Of a stretch of DNA of 25,517 nucleotides, positions 3,877 to 15,510 are shown in pieces. Both the position numbers and the translations under genes were made by a program. Positions within the stretch are counted from its first letter, which is position 1, and every line of letters starts with the position of its first letter. The stretch is from a virus. The notes under the pieces were generated by a model. The model worked only from the letters and a program-made list of their open reading frames with translations. It ran no database searches and had not been told where the DNA came from. The stretch is from IMG/VR virus record IMGVR_UViG_3300007522_001016, positions 1-25,517 of that record; one strand, given 5' to 3'.

Positions 3877-4128
3877 ATGACAACAAAACCAAGTAAACCA
3901 AAAGCAAAAACCAGTGCCCAAAAGACTCCCGCTAAGAAAGTCCCGGCCAAAAAGGCTCCAGCGAAAAAAGCTGTGAAGTTGGCTGCAAAGCCGGCCGCGA
4001 AGAAAGTCAGCGCAACAGTCTCGCCCGCTTTGCCCGATGCTTCTCGGGGCGCATGGGCTAAAATCGAGCGCTCTGAAATAAAAAGAGAAAACTGGGTGAA
4101 GCGATTTTTTAAAAGCTTGTCGCAGTAA
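3877..4128 (+). CDS. Lys/Ala/Pro-rich histone H1-like DNA-binding protein
   Basis: This 83-residue protein has residues 1-45 made almost only of Lys, Ala, Pro and Val, with repeated PAKK units (KTPAKKVPAKKAPAKKAVK). This resembles the tail of histone H1 and the low-complexity arms of actinobacterial HupB/Lsr2-associated proteins. The C-terminal part (RGAWAKIERSEIKRENWVKRFFKSL) is a basic amphipathic segment. Such tails bind DNA non-specifically, so compaction of phage or host DNA is a reasonable inference. It is the first gene of the rightward block, with no Shine-Dalgarno site and a possible leaderless start. A short hairpin (GCCCT / AGGGC, 4129-4147) follows the stop. Overlapping frames on the other strand are shadows caused by the biased composition. 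Confidence 0.8.
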   Translation: MTTKPSKPKAKTSAQKTPAKKVPAKKAPAKKAVKLAAKPAAKKVSATVSPALPDASRGAWAKIERSEIKRENWVKRFFKSLSQ

Positions 4129-4595: not shown

Positions 4596-4970
4596 ATGGA
4601 CGATTTTAGCAATCCTCCGAAAAACGGAAACTGCCTCGGGCTCGATACCAACATGTGGTACCCCGGTTTAAAACAGGGTGCAAGCAAAACTGAATACAGG
4701 GCTTACGTAGACAAGATGAAAATAGCTATTTCTATTTGCGAACAATGCGTCGTCAAAATTGAATGCCTTGAGTATTCCTTGCGCCATGAGCCCCACGGAA
4801 TATGGGGCGGCAAAACTGAGTCCGAACGCGCCAATTTACGATACGTAAATAAGGTGCCCCTATCGCGAGACGGTAGAGTTTTTTTTGCAGGAGTAGGGAC
4901 CCGCTCTGCCGATGGCCGCGCCTATTATCGTCCACGTTCACGAATATTGCCGAGTGCATCAAATGAATAA
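4596..4970 (+). CDS. whiB: WhiB-family iron-sulfur transcription regulator
   Basis: This 124-residue protein has the four cysteines that bind a [4Fe-4S] cluster in WhiB proteins, C13 and C48-x2-C51-x5-C57. They are followed by the diagnostic turn GIWGG (68-72) and a basic segment (KTESERANLR). WhiB proteins bind the main sigma factor and adjust transcription; phage copies (for example TM4 WhiB) can interfere with host WhiB2 and cell division. A strong ribosome binding site (AGAGGAGAG) precedes the ATG. The C-terminal tail beyond residue 85 is longer than the minimal domain and is basic. Its 3' end overlaps the primase start. This gene is the best host indicator in the window. Confidence 0.95.
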   Translation: MDDFSNPPKNGNCLGLDTNMWYPGLKQGASKTEYRAYVDKMKIAISICEQCVVKIECLEYSLRHEPHGIWGGKTESERANLRYVNKVPLSRDGRVFFAGVGTRSADGRAYYRPRSRILPSASNE

Positions 4971-7669: not shown

Positions 7670-7675
7670 TATTCT
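7670..7675 (+). promoter_or_regulatory. Possible -10 (TATTCT) before the giant gene
   Basis: TATTCT ends 8 nt before ATG 7684, and no Shine-Dalgarno sequence is present. The spacing matches the leaderless pattern of other unit starts in the window. No -35 is recognised. Confidence 0.35.
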
Positions 7676-7683
7676 TGATAAAT

Positions 7684-10600
7684 ATGCCTCGGCAATTCAA
7701 GATTTCATATTCTAATTCCCGTCGGGGAGCCTTAGAGCGCCCGGCGTCTATTCCGCGCGTGCCCTCTGGGCAGTGGAACATCTACACAAAGCCACAAGAG
7801 CACAATAGATTAAAAAATGAAATCCTCAATGGTTCCAATGGTGGGGCGCGGGGGCAGTGGAGCGTTCGAAAAGCACAGCTTCTGGCCTCCGCTTATGAAA
7901 AAATTGGAGGGGGTTACACTGGGCGACGCTCGCGCCCGCAGAGAACTCCTGGGCGATTGGGGCCGAAACTGTATAACCGCAAGAAACGGGATGACGCACG
8001 CAAGGGAAAGAGGACGCGAGTCCATCTGCCCGCCAAGGCGTGGACGCGGGTGTCGGCATTCCGGCGCAAGGCTGACAATCAAGCGCGGATATTCCAAAGT
8101 CGAAACGCGGTGGAAAATGCCAAGACGGTATCAACCAAATCGCTTTCTGTTGAGTACGAACTTGAAACTAAGGCCGCAAGACGAAAAATTAGAGGATTAA
8201 TTGGAAACGCCGGGCGACTAGGTGGCGGTATTGGCAGTGCTCGACGGTCTGATATCGACGTACCTACTGGCGGAGTCGCCGGAATCCGAAGGGTCACCCC
8301 AGATATGTCGCTTGTCGACGTCGACAGCGATGGGTGGGCGAGAGAGGGAACCGCGAATCCAGTATGGGTCGGAATAAATGCGGTCGATAAATTAAGTTCC
8401 GGCAAAGACCGTCCGCGTCTGGCTATGTTTCGCCGTGATAAAAATACTCGTCCAGTAATTCCGATGAGAAACACCGAACACGAACGACTTCTTATTCGGC
8501 ACCATAAGAAAACGTACGTTTACGGAGATAAAGATGTATTTGGTCGCACCATCGGTCGCCAGCACCGAGGACCAAGGTGGCTTGATGGTTTGACCAACAA
8601 ACAGATTGCCACAGTTCTAATACCGTCGACAAGAGAGCAGCATCGGCAAATGTGGATTGACGGCGAGCCTTATACGCCGGGAACCATTAATAACTTCCTT
8701 AATTTTTTTGACGAAGAGATGGCGAGAGCGTACAGGCAAGTGGATTATTCACCAGCCGCCATACGAGAGATGCGGGCGGAGCTTGAGTCCGCACTTAACA
8801 ATTCGCCGCTCCTCGCGTGGAGTTTTCGAACGCATGGAGCACCAATATTTGCGATGCTGACGCCGGAAGCAGTCGATGCCTACATGGACCTTCCGCACAT
8901 AGTGAAGATGCTTGAGGAAAGAATAAAATTACTAACCACAGCCAATCCGAACATTGCACCAGAGAAAATACGCAAGGCAGTACTCATGGGCACCGTAGTC
9001 AAGGGTTCTCACTCCCCCGGGATGGGGGCGGTTGTATTTAATCCCGATATGATTAAGGGGAAACCGGTACGCAGTATAAATCTAAAAACATTTGAGGCCG
9101 CTTGGGGCGTTAGGCCATCCATCTCAAAGTATGACGATATGCCCGACTCCTCAACTATGTCAATGGATGATAGCGTCGGTGGAACGATACGGCACGAGTA
9201 CGGTCATTGGCTGCATAATATGGCTCAACGACAGGCGGAAATATCCGATGGGCCCTGGAGGCCGTATTATTTGATATCAAATAGCAATCACGCGCTGTCC
9301 GTAGCAAACGAATACAATAGCGCTGAAAGTTTTTGGGATAAGGAGTCACCATCGATTGACATTCAGACTGTTTCCGATTCCCCACGCACCCTCACCCGGT
9401 ATGGCTACACAAATCTCCGTGAGATGTTCGCTGAAGGATTTAGTGCCGTGACACATCCAAACCCGGAGGCAAGTCGGACCCTCATTAATGCGAAACTACG
9501 AAATGACGTAGAAACCATTCTTGGCGCCGGAAGAGGACAAAAGCCATGGCTCGACGAGAATGGGGATGTTAAAACCAACAAGCTCTCCTCTGCCGGCAAA
9601 ACGGAAACATTTGGCAAATATGAAATGCGTTCTTCGCATGGATTCAATAAGGATATTCATTCGATTACCGATGGAATCGCATACGACAAAAATGGACAGA
9701 AATTAAACAATATTGTGCTGTATCACGAGGGCTCCCCGGTGGGATTCCTTTCATGGAGCCAGGAAGATGGCGCAATTCGCTACCTTGCTGTTTTGGATAA
9801 ACACAAGGACCGCGGACTCGGAAAACGAATGCTAAAAATGAGTCAGAAAATCTCGCAAGACTCAGATATGACCAGCGTTAAAGTTTCTAGGGATATTTCC
9901 CCGGACGGCGATTCGCTGCTCCACCCAGTTTTGCCGTCGCTGCCGTCGACCGCGGTGTCGACAGCCAAATTGCCGAGATTCCCGCGCCAACCGACGTATG
10001 GAGCGTTTATCGGGAGCGCAGTAGAGCGTTTTAAAGACGCGCGGACGTGGGAGCGTTTTGAGCGCATTTATAACGACACAGAAGTCATCTTCTTCGACTA
10101 CGAAACAACCGGTTTGGTCTTCGACAAATTCGGAGAGTCGTCTAGCAACGGCCAGCCATTGCAGTTTGGTGCCGTAAAGATGAGAAACGGCAAAGTAATT
10201 GATTCGATAAATTTATTTATGAACCCCGAAGAACCGCTCGGTGATTGGTCGAAGGCGAATTTGAAAGATATGGACGGGAACCCGCTTGCCGATGAATGGC
10301 TCCTAAATCAACCCTCAATGGCCGCAGCGCATCAGCGTCTGGCGGAATTCGCCGGACCCGACGCAATATTCGGCGTTCAAAACGCGGTATTTGACAAGAA
10401 CGTCCTTGATGACGCACTCGCCGCCGCAGGGATTGATTGGAGACCCGGGGGATATCTCGATACAAAAGAAATAGCCGACATGGTTCTGCCAAAGTGGAGC
10501 GAAGATAATCAAGACGGGCCATTTTTAGTAGATGGTAAAACCGGGGAGAAAAAGGCGTCGACGGGGCTTGCTGCGATTACCAAATATCTGGAAGTAGACC

Positions 10601-13600
10601 TGGGGGAAAAGCATCACACAGCAGACGCCGATGCCGAAGCAACCGGGAAGGTGATGTCCGCCATCATTGAGGGCGCAATTAAAAATGATTGGCCGTCGAA
10701 GGTGCTTGATGGCGACCTTAGGGTATCAAGAGCTGAGAAAAAAGACTCCGATTTCGGTAAGGCTGTAGAAAAATTCCGCACCGAAAAAGCTAAGTGGATA
10801 GAGGATGATGCTAGCGCACGTAAATTGAGTAGCGCGCGTGCGTCTCGGAATTTCGTAAGGGCAGCCCCACCAGACGCGCCGCGCGCAAAAACAGAAGACA
10901 GAATGTTAAGTCGAATAACTAACGCTGGTGGCAAAAACGCCCGAGACCTTGTTGACAGACTCCTGAAATTGTTTGCTTCCAAGGAATATCCGGAGGACCT
11001 CAGGCCATATCGCGCAGGGGTTAACGTATCCGAACCAATTGTTGCGATTCAGGAATTGGTCGATGTTTTTAAAGGACTTGGGCATTCAAGCGTAAAGGTT
11101 GATGGAAGTGTCGCAAAAATTCTGGGCCCGGTAATTCCCGAGTTGATAGACCTAGTCGGCAGCGAGGAAGATATTCAGTATGCGCGAGAGTGGACGGCGC
11201 CACAGGCCGACGAATGGGCTAAAATAGCCGCGCTTTCCGCGGTCAGACAATGGGGCATAGAGGACAGCCTTGGCGAAACCATAGATACACTCCTAAATCG
11301 CCCGGTGCTATGGAATGGTGAAGAAAAATTCCCAGACTTCGAAGCCCTGCCGGATGGTAACTACGGATACGACATCACATCACAAATGAAATCGACGCTC
11401 ACCCTTTTGGACAGTCAGGGAAACGTTGCCATGAGAATCCCGCCGGGAGTACTCACGGAGCAAGACGTGAAACTTCTATCTCTGGGAAACCTTATGAGCT
11501 GGCTGAGTACTCTCCACAAACGAACCGATGGCGATTTACCCTTCATGGCCATGGTCCAGCGAGCCATATACCCAGATGAGGATTTAAACATATTATTCGG
11601 CCCGGGACGGGCAAAGAGTCACGACATAATCACCGTGTTTCGGGCACAGGAATCAGGCCCTATTCGAGTTCATTCATCTCAAATGGAGTTTGCGGATTCT
11701 CAAGCTGGCGAATTTCTCAAGGGCGTAGTGGGGCGTGCGGAAGCGAATAATGAGCATCATCGGGAATTCGCAAAACGATATGGACAGCGCGTGCGGACCC
11801 TGCTTGCGGAAGCCGGACTTGATGTGGATTCGCCGGATGTAAAACTCGCCCTTACAGATGCATGGCATCCAGCCGTTGACGCGGTGGTTCTTTCGAAGGA
11901 GGACGGCGGACGCTTTGTGACTGCCGCGGCCATGGCTAGAAACATTGTTACAAACTTATACGCGCCAGCATGGGACCCTGAGGCCGATTCCTATACAACG
12001 GCACACGAATTTATGCATATTATAACGGGACAGGGATTTACCCGACACGGCGAACTGGCCGCAGATGTGGGTTGGCTTGGATTCTTCGGAGAGGATGTAT
12101 GGCCTACCGTCCATCAGTTATTGGACCTTCAGGGTCGCTTTTACGATATGCAAGTGCAGGATTTTGAGAATCCGATATCCTCGCAGGCAAGCAGCGGGTC
12201 ACCCCATCGAAGCATCCCGCATGAAGAACAATGGCAGTCACAGAAAGTCCGTTTTTTAAACGAACTTAAACGAATAATGGGTGACCACTTATTCAACGCT
12301 TCGCCACAAATCAAAGAGGGAGTCGGCCCCAAGATTCGCGAGATAAACCGCTTCCTGAGCCCGTGGGTCCCGATGACCGCAGAAGAATTGGGGTGGGGTT
12401 CCACCGATATGACCGGGCCCACGCTGAGTCGCAAAAAATCCGACCGACTATCTTCTGGACGAACATGGGCGCGTGGCAAGAGTAACTCGATACTGAGAAA
12501 TTCGAGCATTTCGGCCCATGCCTTTACCGAAGAATCGGAATCCGGCGATGTAAAAATGCATCAGATTGTCAAATATAACGGCAGACCAATGATTCTTGCT
12601 AACATTTCTATCCCCCACCCCACGAGGCATGCCAGAATCAACATAAGGGTTCCGTTTTTCATGAGCATCGGAGAGGACAACAGAGACGGTATCCCAATCG
12701 GAAGATGGTATCCGTTCTTCGGCATAACATCCGACAATCATTTGAGAAAACTCGGCGATAAAAATTCTCTTGTTAACTATTACAACTCATCCGAACTGCG
12801 CTCCATAGCGGAACGACTTGACGCGTCTCTTAGAGATACCGGAATAGGAAAATACCGAGGGCCACTCAACGATAAAAACATTTTTGAGATACGCAACCCC
12901 GAATTGAGATATGACGACTGGGCGGCCGGACTCCCGACACAGGACAGGCGGTTTGTTGGCATAATAAACCGAGACGTAGGAGAGATGGACCTTGATATCG
13001 TCAAAAGTGAAGGTCTCAACGAAGAATCTATCTCAAAAATATTACGCAGTGCCCCTGATTACGGCTACCAGGGCATGCAGACTCGCGAGCAGCGACATCG
13101 TAGGCTTAGACAGGCGCGAGACCCGTATACGACAAAACTTTCGTCAGGGATGGACAGAAGGCATACCGCTGCTGACATAAAAGAGAAAATTGCCGAAATA
13201 TTCCACAATCCGGACGACCCCACTAAATTGCGCGTTCCAGAAGAATCACGAGATGGCCTGAGGGCAATCATAGATAGTGGAGGCTTCACCGGTTCGGCCG
13301 ATACCGCATCAGCCACCGCGGCAGTAAGGCCCGTTATCGACGTTGGGGTCATGGCCATGAGCCTGTTTTACCAGCATGTCGAAGATGGTTTCGTCAACAT
13401 GGACGAGCCAACGAAAAAGCAACTTGCCGAGATATTGAGATTAGTGTCCCCAGGTTTGGAGTCCGTACCGTTGACGCAGGAGACGGTCACTGCGGCCAGA
13501 AAAGCCGTTAGGGATTTTGATTTACTTCAACAAATAATAAGAAGAGACCTCGTGCCGCATGTCAGGGACGACGAAGGCATTATGAATAAACGGTCAAGGG

Positions 13601-15510
13601 CGGTACGCGACATCACCAGAATGATGTTTGAGAGTCGCTGGAATTTGCAGGGCGTCGGACAAAATCAGCCAGACGGTGACGGCGCGTTTCCCCGTCCGAC
13701 ATATACCGGTATTTTTTGGGGCGAATTTTCTCGATTGTACGACAGCGAGAACCGAACTACGGCGGCGAAGATTCCACAACCAGTACGCGATGCATGGGAT
13801 AAAAGAAAGCCCCTCATTGAAGAGCATGCTAGAAAAATCAATTCACGCAAGGGCCCGGAGTACGATGAATTCACGGTAATGTTCCAGCATACCGCCCTGA
13901 AGGTTAGGGGTGTAACGAACCGTACGTCTCACAGCCCATCCGATGCAAGAAAGATGGCTAATGATTTTCTTGACAAGTATGGAGAATACGGACTGCGCGA
14001 GGCGATGCATGAAGCTCTTGGCTCACGCATACACAGCCTATCCGTCGACGCCATGGACGTAGAAAGAAAAGCAAACGAATTATTGGAGAGTAGTGTTTTG
14101 ACGCCGCAAGAATACAGGGCGGCAGTTAAAGATGCGAGACGGACGATGCTGGAACCACACGGACACGGAGATGAACCAATGCATTCCCTGGTTGCGGGCA
14201 GACAGTTCAGGGGGACCTATGCGACATCATTTGGAACCGACCATGAACTATTCGGTTATGCCGTTGACGGAATACGCAAAGGCCTCATGGCGGAGCATTC
14301 CCGCGGCGAGCCATCAGAATTTGAAAATTATACATTTCGGAATTTGATTTTGACCGAAGATGAGAGATTTGATATCGTTAGCGCATACGTTAAATTCCTG
14401 GCCACCCCAACGCTAGTAAAGTCCGTCATAAATCTCTCTGAAATCCGGAAAAGTCTAGAGAAGGAATCCAGAGCCATTGACGGGATGCAGTCGTCTCCGG
14501 AAAGAATGGTGGGCCTGATTCTCGAAGGCCGACTTGGTGAAATCCCCGACAATCACATATTCATGGACATCGGACCCGACGAGGATACATCAGACACGTC
14601 GCAGGATATGAAAAATGTGACGAACGCTTTCCGCGCCGTCAGGATAAAAAATAAGAAAATCGAATTAGCCCATACTGCTGAGGTAATCAGTCGGAAAGTC
14701 AAAACTGATGCGTACAAGCAATTAATGGCCTCATCAGGCATAGAGCTCGCCACAGAAAGCCGTGCGTTAGAAACAATTAAGTCCGCGACCCCGTTGGTCA
14801 CGCAGGAAGCAACAAAGATAATTTCTCTGTTTCCTTTAGGGTTGATAAATGCAGAAGGGGATAGCGGCACACCACAAAGCCGCCTAACCCATGTACAACG
14901 AACCGACAAATACGTGAACCGCAAATTGGTAGTGAAAATTAATACAAAACAGGGGAGGGCCCATGCTCAGTGGATACCGCACATGAGTCGATGGTCGTCC
15001 ACGGGCGAGATGGAAGAGGGTGGCGAATACACCCAGCTAAAATTGAATAAAATGCCAGCACCGAACGACCCTAGTTACCCGAAATGGAGAAGCACGCTTA
15101 TTCACGAATTGGTTCACTCCATGGAAAATGCTAACCCGCAACTAAAAATGTGGGAATATGCATTTTGGACCCATAGACGCAAGGGGGAAAAACTTCAAAA
15201 ACTAAAGAAGCTAACTGGCTGGAGCTACGGACCGTCGGAAGTGGCAATTAAGGACGAATGGCCAGATGCATATAGCGGTAGATTCTATGGTACTTACGGC
15301 GGGGGTTTGCCCGAGCAGCAAAATTACGAAATACTAAGTACCGGACTTGAGCGACTATTGGGCAACAAGTCTTGGAATGACCCAGAGTACGAGGCTTTTG
15401 TCATGGGTATTTTGATGCTCGCTAATCGGCTTGAAGTCGCATGGGAAAAACCAGAAAGTCTGCCGGAGCCGCCAGGGTCATCTGATGCTGTACGCTTTAA
15501 TCGGGAATAG
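7684..15510 (+). CDS. Giant polyvalent protein: three zincin metallopeptidase motifs, GNAT, DEDDh exonuclease
   Basis: The protein is 2608 residues from ATG 7684 (TTG 7675 is possible). Order: a basic N-terminus with a DUF5872-like stretch (about 55-150, WSVRKAQLLASAYEKIGGGY); HExxH metallopeptidase 1 (HEYGH 504-508, possible third ligand E584); GNAT acetyltransferase (about 677-745, acetyl-CoA loop K708-x2-G711-x-G713); DnaQ-like DEDDh 3'-5' exonuclease (D805, E807, D904, H978, D983); metallopeptidase 2 (HEFMH 1441-1445, then HGE 1455-1457); an unassigned region; and metallopeptidase 3 (HELVH 2474-2478, E2556). [KR]LSS[GA] occurs at 236, 633, 1047, 1588 and 1818, always between modules. The combination fits phage polyvalent proteins, thought to enter the host with the DNA and act on host defences. 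Self-processing and injection are inferences. Confidence 0.92.
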   Translation: MPRQFKISYSNSRRGALERPASIPRVPSGQWNIYTKPQEHNRLKNEILNGSNGGARGQWSVRKAQLLASAYEKIGGGYTGRRSRPQRTPGRLGPKLYNRKKRDDARKGKRTRVHLPAKAWTRVSAFRRKADNQARIFQSRNAVENAKTVSTKSLSVEYELETKAARRKIRGLIGNAGRLGGGIGSARRSDIDVPTGGVAGIRRVTPDMSLVDVDSDGWAREGTANPVWVGINAVDKLSSGKDRPRLAMFRRDKNTRPVIPMRNTEHERLLIRHHKKTYVYGDKDVFGRTIGRQHRGPRWLDGLTNKQIATVLIPSTREQHRQMWIDGEPYTPGTINNFLNFFDEEMARAYRQVDYSPAAIREMRAELESALNNSPLLAWSFRTHGAPIFAMLTPEAVDAYMDLPHIVKMLEERIKLLTTANPNIAPEKIRKAVLMGTVVKGSHSPGMGAVVFNPDMIKGKPVRSINLKTFEAAWGVRPSISKYDDMPDSSTMSMDDSVGGTIRHEYGHWLHNMAQRQAEISDGPWRPYYLISNSNHALSVANEYNSAESFWDKESPSIDIQTVSDSPRTLTRYGYTNLREMFAEGFSAVTHPNPEASRTLINAKLRNDVETILGAGRGQKPWLDENGDVKTNKLSSAGKTETFGKYEMRSSHGFNKDIHSITDGIAYDKNGQKLNNIVLYHEGSPVGFLSWSQEDGAIRYLAVLDKHKDRGLGKRMLKMSQKISQDSDMTSVKVSRDISPDGDSLLHPVLPSLPSTAVSTAKLPRFPRQPTYGAFIGSAVERFKDARTWERFERIYNDTEVIFFDYETTGLVFDKFGESSSNGQPLQFGAVKMRNGKVIDSINLFMNPEEPLGDWSKANLKDMDGNPLADEWLLNQPSMAAAHQRLAEFAGPDAIFGVQNAVFDKNVLDDALAAAGIDWRPGGYLDTKEIADMVLPKWSEDNQDGPFLVDGKTGEKKASTGLAAITKYLEVDLGEKHHTADADAEATGKVMSAIIEGAIKNDWPSKVLDGDLRVSRAEKKDSDFGKAVEKFRTEKAKWIEDDASARKLSSARASRNFVRAAPPDAPRAKTEDRMLSRITNAGGKNARDLVDRLLKLFASKEYPEDLRPYRAGVNVSEPIVAIQELVDVFKGLGHSSVKVDGSVAKILGPVIPELIDLVGSEEDIQYAREWTAPQADEWAKIAALSAVRQWGIEDSLGETIDTLLNRPVLWNGEEKFPDFEALPDGNYGYDITSQMKSTLTLLDSQGNVAMRIPPGVLTEQDVKLLSLGNLMSWLSTLHKRTDGDLPFMAMVQRAIYPDEDLNILFGPGRAKSHDIITVFRAQESGPIRVHSSQMEFADSQAGEFLKGVVGRAEANNEHHREFAKRYGQRVRTLLAEAGLDVDSPDVKLALTDAWHPAVDAVVLSKEDGGRFVTAAAMARNIVTNLYAPAWDPEADSYTTAHEFMHIITGQGFTRHGELAADVGWLGFFGEDVWPTVHQLLDLQGRFYDMQVQDFENPISSQASSGSPHRSIPHEEQWQSQKVRFLNELKRIMGDHLFNASPQIKEGVGPKIREINRFLSPWVPMTAEELGWGSTDMTGPTLSRKKSDRLSSGRTWARGKSNSILRNSSISAHAFTEESESGDVKMHQIVKYNGRPMILANISIPHPTRHARINIRVPFFMSIGEDNRDGIPIGRWYPFFGITSDNHLRKLGDKNSLVNYYNSSELRSIAERLDASLRDTGIGKYRGPLNDKNIFEIRNPELRYDDWAAGLPTQDRRFVGIINRDVGEMDLDIVKSEGLNEESISKILRSAPDYGYQGMQTREQRHRRLRQARDPYTTKLSSGMDRRHTAADIKEKIAEIFHNPDDPTKLRVPEESRDGLRAIIDSGGFTGSADTASATAAVRPVIDVGVMAMSLFYQHVEDGFVNMDEPTKKQLAEILRLVSPGLESVPLTQETVTAARKAVRDFDLLQQIIRRDLVPHVRDDEGIMNKRSRAVRDITRMMFESRWNLQGVGQNQPDGDGAFPRPTYTGIFWGEFSRLYDSENRTTAAKIPQPVRDAWDKRKPLIEEHARKINSRKGPEYDEFTVMFQHTALKVRGVTNRTSHSPSDARKMANDFLDKYGEYGLREAMHEALGSRIHSLSVDAMDVERKANELLESSVLTPQEYRAAVKDARRTMLEPHGHGDEPMHSLVAGRQFRGTYATSFGTDHELFGYAVDGIRKGLMAEHSRGEPSEFENYTFRNLILTEDERFDIVSAYVKFLATPTLVKSVINLSEIRKSLEKESRAIDGMQSSPERMVGLILEGRLGEIPDNHIFMDIGPDEDTSDTSQDMKNVTNAFRAVRIKNKKIELAHTAEVISRKVKTDAYKQLMASSGIELATESRALETIKSATPLVTQEATKIISLFPLGLINAEGDSGTPQSRLTHVQRTDKYVNRKLVVKINTKQGRAHAQWIPHMSRWSSTGEMEEGGEYTQLKLNKMPAPNDPSYPKWRSTLIHELVHSMENANPQLKMWEYAFWTHRRKGEKLQKLKKLTGWSYGPSEVAIKDEWPDAYSGRFYGTYGGGLPEQQNYEILSTGLERLLGNKSWNDPEYEAFVMGILMLANRLEVAWEKPESLPEPPGSSDAVRFNRE

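Follow-up and report, generated by a model that had tools for sequence, protein, structure and literature searches.

A lineage-specific L-[S/A]-S-G separator at the module borders of giant phage proteins suggests processing by a trans-acting phage protease

We analysed a stretch of viral DNA of 25,517 nucleotides (the window; positions 1 to 25,517 of IMG/VR record IMGVR_UViG_3300007522_001016) that encodes a giant modular protein of 2611 aa on the plus strand (7675..15510 in the ORF list; start codon TTG, with ATG at 7684 as a possible alternative). This protein, giant A of its phage group, has homologues in L004, L006, L007, L158-L175 and others, and it seems reasonably likely that it is one of about three giant polyproteins whose separators are cut in trans by a phage protease, most likely of the S78 type. 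The separator motif stands at the borders of modules whose order is shuffled between phages, it is under selection at the peptide level, and it displays a lineage-specific specificity common to different proteins.

The initial annotation had reported five copies of [KR]LSS[GA] in this protein, and all five were recovered exactly where it had placed them: KLSSG, KLSSA, KLSSA, RLSSG and KLSSG start at nt 8389, 9580, 10822, 12445 and 13135, i.e., at aa 239, 636, 1050, 1591 and 1821 when numbered from the TTG at 7675 (its own residue numbers, 236 etc., take the ATG at 7684 as the start). Among 20,000 shuffled versions of the protein encoded by ORF 7675-15510, the mean was 0.024 copies and none had more than 2. 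The five separators account for every LSS triplet in the protein, and the sole further six-frame match to the motif in the window (20205) is out of frame. The DNA 12-mers of the five copies all differ from each other, in agreement with the earlier claim that the peptide rather than the DNA is kept. Among 39 non-redundant giants, the fourth motif position is generally G (249 L[SA]SG observed vs 6.8 expected); LSSA as a general variant was not enriched in this set (L[SA]SA, 10 vs 6.6 expected), and the two KLSSA copies are taken as separators because they lie at homologous module borders, not by sequence alone.

All features of giant A lie on the plus strand. The N-terminal module (aa 35-147, 7777..8115) covers a phrog_17747 region with GQWSxRKAQL (PHROG match, E=4e-14); in several relatives it is a separate gene of 161-173 aa just downstream of giant A, and by blastp it matches solo ORFs in L036, L158, L164 and L175 (42-50%) as well as a 361-aa gene near the capsid gene. 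It is followed by a disordered lead with DVDSDGWAREGT (aa 149-238, 8119..8388; pLDDT about 30); blastp places this element at the start of other giant A proteins and, in several relatives, within giant B. Separator 1 (KLSSG, aa 239-243, 8389..8403; pLDDT about 30) leads to pep1, a zincin-like metallopeptidase module delimited by its predicted fold (aa 267-635, 8473..9579) with HEYGH at aa 507-511, whose H, E and H are invariant in 12 homologues; pep1 of L004 yielded a Peptidase_Mx match (E=8e-4). A Foldseek search of the pep1-GNAT model against PDB returned no match below E 0.26, the best being GNAT fragments, and the pep1 fold was therefore not identified by structure. Separator 2 (KLSSA, aa 636-640, 9580..9594), at which pep1 homology stops, lies in a segment of pLDDT<50 between pep1 and a GNAT acetyltransferase-like module (aa about 644-726, 9604..9852; predicted strands and helix, Pfam PF00583 E=0.001, just under the cut-off). 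The latter shares one piece of the protein with a DEDD exonuclease module (aa 767-1043, 9973..10803; Pfam RNase_T E=2.6e-8, phrog_192 E=1.2e-20, 50-65% to relatives); the LSSG that precedes the exonuclease in relatives was lost from the window protein. Homology to pep2, the second metallopeptidase module (aa 1055-1576, 10837..12402; 34-35% to L004, L006 and L007), begins at aa 1055, directly after separator 3 (KLSSA, aa 1050-1054, 10822..10836), and its HEFMH (aa 1444-1448) is invariant in homologue alignment A1. Separator 4 (RLSSG, aa 1591-1595, 12445..12459) occupies the lowest-pLDDT coil of its model and separator 5 (KLSSG, aa 1821-1825, 13135..13149) another low-pLDDT coil; between them lies a module without assigned function (aa 1596-1820, 12460..13134), weakly matched by aa 994-1201 of L006 (E=3e-6) and aa 2703-2782 of L158. 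The C-terminal piece (aa 1826-2611, 13150..15507) contains a third HExxH peptidase-like stretch (HELVH), a weak Pfam M85 match (aa 2453-2487, E=0.004) and a match to phrog_33618 (aa 2473-2574, E=5e-8).

The alignments bear out the proposal that the motif marks module borders and is conserved in homologues with divergent flanks; at the left border of pep1, for example, the LSSG of separator 1 is invariant whereas its flanks diverge (homologue alignment A2). Pfam and PHROG domain matches (E<=0.001) in the window protein, in L004 and in giant B of G003 contain no site, and in giant C of G004 one motif adjoins a MuF match at its C-terminal edge. Sites in unfolded linkers, as in a polyprotein, were also found in the predicted structures, clearly for sites 1 and 2, and for sites 3-5 as low-pLDDT coil in a second model of generally low confidence (mean pLDDT 45.6). 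With the motif outside folded domains in these models and conserved in homologues, neither of the two objections foreseen in the initial annotation materialised. Between phages, the modules (exonuclease, metallopeptidases, GNAT, ADP-ribosyltransferase-like, helicase) are ordered differently with breakpoints at the motif: 51% of 1664 non-syntenic alignment ends fall within 30 aa of a site vs 15% at random.

Relatives encode three giants per phage (2.5-4.3 thousand residues) with 17-26 L[SA]SG per genome and almost none in the rest of the proteome; in four relatives the density per 1000 aa is 1.66-2.93 in the giants vs 0-0.13 elsewhere, and in a single giant chain the motif recurs 8-17 times, so that these proteins have the layout of polyproteins, their sites recurring between functional units and being scarce elsewhere. 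They are also polyvalent in the sense of combining several unrelated enzymatic domains per chain (exonuclease, GNAT-like and peptidases in the window protein; ArdC-N, MPTase-PolyVal and UvrD helicase in giant B), and giants B and C adjoin the portal and capsid genes. A search of other proteins of the same phage, as suggested in the initial annotation, located the motif in the four relatives in three giants per phage and in the tape measure protein (one site in 3/3 phages); the delta-domain border of the major capsid protein lacks L[SA]SG and fits a looser conserved [VI][YF][ST][GAS] (few distinct sequences). In DSL-LC01, the closest isolate checked, structural and giant genes are without L[SA]SG separators, and inspection of L179 and L183 for an alternative separator found none. 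Matches in phage isolates were limited to exonuclease, ART-like or S78 domains, none with separators, and we found no description of such a separator in open-licence papers on LSSG in phages or on phage polyproteins with a prohead or capsid maturation protease. Searches of 84,980 bacterial and archaeal genomes with the whole protein and with pep2 returned no relative and hence no prophage or host link; the hosts of these large tailed phages are probably aquatic actinobacteria.

Sequence constraint is confined to about -3..+5 around the motif, and the -1 residue (S, R, K or G) depends on the lineage of the phage, without such a signal in the flanks. The groups of this footprint analysis were partly named after the -1 residue, a circularity that is removed by taking S78 sequence clusters as the phage labels, in which case the lineage signal amounts to z=14.2 at -1 and z=5.8 at -2, the next value being 3.2 at -10. 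Different giants of one phage have the -1 residue in common, e.g., S in giants A, B and C of G003 and G in giants A and B of contig 3300013004_000063, and lineage L145/L149 uses FSSG/FASG throughout. At orthologous sites of G003 and G004, the ratio of synonymous to nonsynonymous changes is 25:4 in the core vs 37:54 in the upstream flank, and of the 17-26 DNA 12-mers in each phage 16-23 are different; the DNA drifts under a conserved peptide, i.e., selection acts at the peptide level. A -1 residue that is set by lineage and common across giants, with no signal in the flanks, suggests a trans-acting recogniser, for which a protease is the best explanation.

We therefore favour a model in which [-1]L-[S/A]-S-G would be the intermodular recognition site of a trans-acting phage protease, which would cut the chains into single-function pieces. 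The main candidate enzyme is the S78-type head-maturation protease (PF04586, E=7.5e-11; >559 IMG/VR relatives) predicted as the N-terminal module of giant B, whose gene follows the portal gene downstream. S78 is present in relatives G001-G004; the window contig, a fragment of 25.5 kb, lacks the structural genes and the S78 gene, and we infer from synteny that the window phage has one. By analogy with T4 gp21 and phiKZ-type enzymes, the cut would most likely fall between the last S and G of L-S-S-G: P3 would be L, P2 S or A, P1 S and P1' G, and the lineage-specific residue would occupy P4. Once freed, the modules (exonuclease, metallopeptidases, GNAT, ADP-ribosyltransferase-like, ArdC, helicase, MuF head protein) might be packaged as head-internal or ejected proteins and serve as early effectors. 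Against S78, L[SA]SG is missing from the delta-domain border of the major capsid protein, the classical substrate, and the tape measure protein, a tail protein not expected in proheads, bears a site.

A freely diffusing enzyme would account for the tape measure site, and the main rival of S78 is pep1, the zincin-like metallopeptidase of giant A, which might cut the separators both in cis and in trans, once the chains are synthesised or ejected. Pep1 is present with an intact HExxH in every long giant A recovered, as consistently as S78, no match to it was found in the separator-less giants (L179, L183, DSL-LC01), and processing of polyvalent proteins by MPTases was proposed by Iyer et al. 2017 (PMC5512222). 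However, many packaged proteins are known substrates of head proteases, which cut them at a short motif, whereas no specificity is known for pep1, and we regard cleavage by the giants' metallopeptidases as possible but unlikely. Pep2 and the HExxH peptidases of giant B cannot be the general enzyme because pep2 is restricted to few phages and HExxH occurs in only 19/48 long giant B proteins. The initial annotation had suggested a polyprotein cut by its own metallopeptidases or by a phage protease; the evidence partly supports this reading, and of the two cutters the phage protease is better supported, with pep1 still a candidate.

Trans-acting, lineage-specific recognition is also compatible with a short binding peptide for a non-proteolytic partner (portal, scaffold or chaperone) that loads modules as cargo. 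Such a peptide could occur in three giants and the tape measure protein and would explain its absence from the capsid border, but a docking tag need neither occupy nearly every border nor recur 8-17 times per chain, and a border footprint of about nine residues is what protease sites typically show, so that this explanation appears rather improbable. Linker-based module shuffling, the alternative raised in the initial annotation, does describe how the modules evolve, since their shuffling is evident and breakpoints concentrate at the motif. As a merely recombination-friendly or flexible linker, however, the motif would need neither an invariant Leu nor a lineage-specific -1 residue, the divergent 12-mers retain no DNA homology, and giants with comparable modules (3290 and 5183 aa) manage without it, which makes this a very doubtful account. 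That a host protease reads the site, with lineage differences following the hosts, would explain the lineage dependence without a phage enzyme, but by itself leaves the near-absence of the motif from the rest of the phage proteome unexplained, and given that these phages encode their own proteases we consider it hardly credible.

Extending the S78 model, there is perhaps an even chance that a true polyprotein strategy operates in a widespread group of tailed DNA phages, in which three giants would be cut in trans at some 20-25 short sites per phage by a protease forming the first module of one giant, site and enzyme specificity would have coevolved by lineage, and modules would swap freely if they bear the lineage's separator. 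If true, this would be a clear case of such a strategy in tailed DNA phages. Processing of polyvalent proteins has already been proposed, and a separator that tracks lineage makes both cut site and enzyme testable. It also allows functional units to be delimited automatically in many unannotated giant phage proteins, and the variants that occur in nature (S, R, K or G at -1; F for L) are a ready data set for protease-substrate coevolution.

In the polyproteins of RNA viruses and retroviruses, the protease resides within the polyprotein, sites are repeated between functional units, and the site sequence varies by lineage; the layout proposed here is the same, although viruses and module content are unrelated and >150 ordinary separate genes coexist with the giants. 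Among similar aquatic phages, Actinomycetia phage DSL-LC01 and IMG/VR L179 encode modular giants (3290 and 5183 aa) without LSSG-type separators, and L179 has the exonuclease module in common. The polyvalent proteins of phages and conjugative elements, whose processing by peptidases of their own was suggested by Iyer et al. 2017, are likewise giant multi-domain proteins with MPTase, ArdC, ART, GNAT, helicase and MuF domains; no site sequence was given for them, whereas here the modules of three giants are separated by about 17-26 motif copies per phage, and their assemblin-like peptidase was reported at C-termini only, whereas S78 is N-terminal (PMC5512222). The prohead proteases T4 gp21 (site L/I-X-E, L/I at P3; PMC9026906) and those of phiKZ/SPN3US (gp245, site A-X-E, A at P3, S preferred at P1'; PMC10052503) resemble the putative system in that a trans-acting clan protease would act on a short motif in many head-internal or ejected proteins. 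Their substrates mostly lose propeptides and their motifs end in Glu (L/I-X-E, S/A-X-E, A-X-E), whereas the motif described here, L-[SA]-S-G, separates whole enzymatic modules.

The window's giant ORF (7675-15510, 2611 aa; giant A) carries five copies of [KR]LSS[GA], here called separators 1-5, which the initial annotation proposed as candidate cleavage sites, and all five were found: KLSSG at 8389, KLSSA at 9580, KLSSA at 10822, RLSSG at 12445 and KLSSG at 13135. They account for every LSS triplet of this protein, shuffled versions of which held on average 0.024 copies and at most two (20,000 trials), and no copy was found in the remaining real ORFs of the window. The claim that copies differ in codons extends to all five.

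The annotation also placed the motif at module borders, and the ends of local alignments do fall there. Homology of the second metallopeptidase module (pep2) begins at aa 1055, the first residue past separator 3; for the first (pep1), most comparisons put the borders of homology near separators 1 and 2, with a start at about 231-240 and an end at about 625-644. Aligned pep1 sequences keep LSSG without variation between diverged flanks, the pattern for which the annotation had proposed a test. The same modules recur reordered in L004 (2148 aa), L006, L007, G001, G002 and others, the order being pep1-GNAT-exonuclease-pep2 in the window and exonuclease-pep1-other modules-GNAT-ART-like-pep2 in L004. 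Across 39 non-redundant giants, the median distance to a separator was 28 aa for 1664 non-syntenic alignment ends and 137.5 aa for randomly chosen positions. The N-terminal module (aa 35-147; window 7777-8115) is in several relatives a small gene of its own directly downstream of giant A, so a module may exist as gene or segment; in relatives its counterpart also occurs close to the capsid gene, as a gene of 361 aa.

Motifs inside folded domains would speak against this arrangement; structure predictions place separators 1, 2, 4 and 5 in low-confidence segments or coil. In the model of aa 150-760 (mean pLDDT 62.8), pLDDT is about 30 around separator 1, and separator 2 starts a segment below 50 between the pep1 and GNAT folds; separators 4 and 5 fall in predicted coil at local confidence minima, within a poor model (aa 1045-1950, 45.6). 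Foldseek returned no confident match for the pep1 model.

As the annotation had suggested, the other proteins of such phages were searched, in four relatives covered in full (G001, 158.7 kb; G002, 145.2 kb; G003, 170.4 kb; G004, 64.4 kb). Each has three giants (A, B and C), with 17, 19, 24 and 26 copies of the general form L[SA]SG in G001-G004, and 3, 5, 3 and 0 outside the giants. Giant B, encoded immediately after the portal gene, has at its N-terminus a head-maturation protease of the Peptidase_S78 family (PF04586, E=7.5e-11), a module that retrieved more than 559 relatives from IMG/VR. In G003 it continues with ArdC-N, MPTase-PolyVal and UvrD helicase modules, and motifs lie outside domain matches, at 1481 shortly before ArdC-N (1487-1579) and at 1082 shortly after sigma-r4 (1043-1075), with none in the 1,200-residue helicase region. 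In giant C a motif lies at the C-terminal edge of a head morphogenesis module of MuF type (phrog_7625, E=3e-24).

The residue preceding the motif (-1) is lineage-specific: S in L075-L084, R in L123, L128, L129 and L133, K in L126, L130, L131 and L142, and G in L116, L117, L121 and L127 (8/8), while L145 and L149 have Phe in place of the Leu (GKFSSG, KRFSSG, GRFASG, AGFSSG). For 143 non-redundant sites, labelled from S78 sequence clusters alone, mutual information exceeded shuffles at -1 (z=14.2) and -2 (z=5.8), the next best being 3.2 at -10 and most positions near 0; a wider set of 232 sites, its groups partly named by the -1 residue, agrees. Unrelated giants of a given phage share this residue: S in all three of G003, K/R in all three of G001, and G in 2 of 3 giant A and 8 of 8 giant B sites of contig 3300013004_000063. 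At orthologous G003/G004 sites, the core had 25 synonymous and 4 nonsynonymous codon changes and the upstream flank 37 and 54, bearing out the claim that the peptide is kept. Together these show that the peptide and not the DNA is under selection, and that this selection spans loci, the trace to be expected in sequences read by a trans-acting recogniser.

Tape measure proteins (L047:5410-10299, L051:8024-12838, L062:12597-17543) each contain one L[SA]SG at residue about 576-586 (3/3 phages), with K, A and S at -1 in that order. The three copies align in one column, within a linker of low complexity and poor conservation that is bounded by conserved ends, and they suggest a recogniser that acts outside the prohead as well. 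L[SA]SG is absent from the delta-domain border of the capsid protein; near it, after a variable stretch, major capsid proteins (L065:12156-13523, L054:4343-5701, L044:8126-9475, L183:14500-15927) conserve [VI][YF][ST][GAS][LM]P, possibly a capsid processing site, whose first four positions, over few distinct sequences, would be compatible with a looser rule.

The constrained stretch covers about nine residues, in which small residues follow a near-invariant hydrophobic one. Among head proteases, the cut follows L/I-X-E for T4 gp21 and S/A-X-E for phiKZ (PMC9026906); SPN3US gp245 cleaves behind A-X-E, shows preferences at P4 and favours Ser at P1' (PMC10052503). A putative cut L-[S/A]-S|G would put strong preferences at P4, P3, P1 and P1', matching head proteases, and this likeness is a lead towards a protease as the recogniser. 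Both S78 and pep1 occur in every LSSG phage with most of its genome covered (G001-G004), so on sequence alone either may read the motif. As to a linker or tag, some modular giants of other aquatic phages lack separators (DSL-LC01, 3290 aa; L179, 5183 aa), so the motif is not required for module fusion. The L179 giant (L179:3476-19027), whose exonuclease is related, also has helicase-like, ART-like and Nudix-like stretches and P/E-rich linkers. A patchy distribution speaks against pep2 and the metallopeptidase of giant B as readers of the motif.

The window is a virus record of IMG/VR, 25,517 bases long. Its gene order (ribonucleotide reductase, WhiB-like, primase/helicase, helix-turn-helix, giant ORF, single-strand binding protein, transglycosylase-like) corresponds to about 146-168 kb of the 170-kb relative G003; the structural genes of this phage therefore lie outside the fragment. 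WhiB-like genes suggest an actinobacterial host; that of the window (4596-4970) encodes a four-cysteine regulator and, as in G003, adjoins the primase/helicase gene. A small, strongly basic, histone H1-like protein with Lys/Pro/Ala repeats (3877-4128) resembles one in G003 (151172-151465). The non-coding contig end (25288-25461, and about 24100, 24190 and 24680) holds tracts of (CCA)n, (CAT)n and (CATA)n as well as TGGATAGATTTAT in three copies; this is unusual in phage and possibly marks a repeat-rich stretch at which assembly ended.

Giant A has the ART-like module in fused form, but Mycobacterium phage Cane17 has it as a gene of its own: the match (L011:5015-6624, genes 113-114) spans gene 114, which gene 113 precedes and overlaps, within a series of separate genes adjoining tail genes. 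Polyvalent proteins as defined by Iyer et al. (2017) were proposed there to undergo autoproteolysis by MPTases; in the parts consulted, assemblin-like peptidases are reported at C-termini only and no cleavage site is described, whereas the giants here carry separators. We found no description of these separators among the open-licence papers searched, and there is a fair chance that they represent a polyprotein strategy not previously described in tailed phages.
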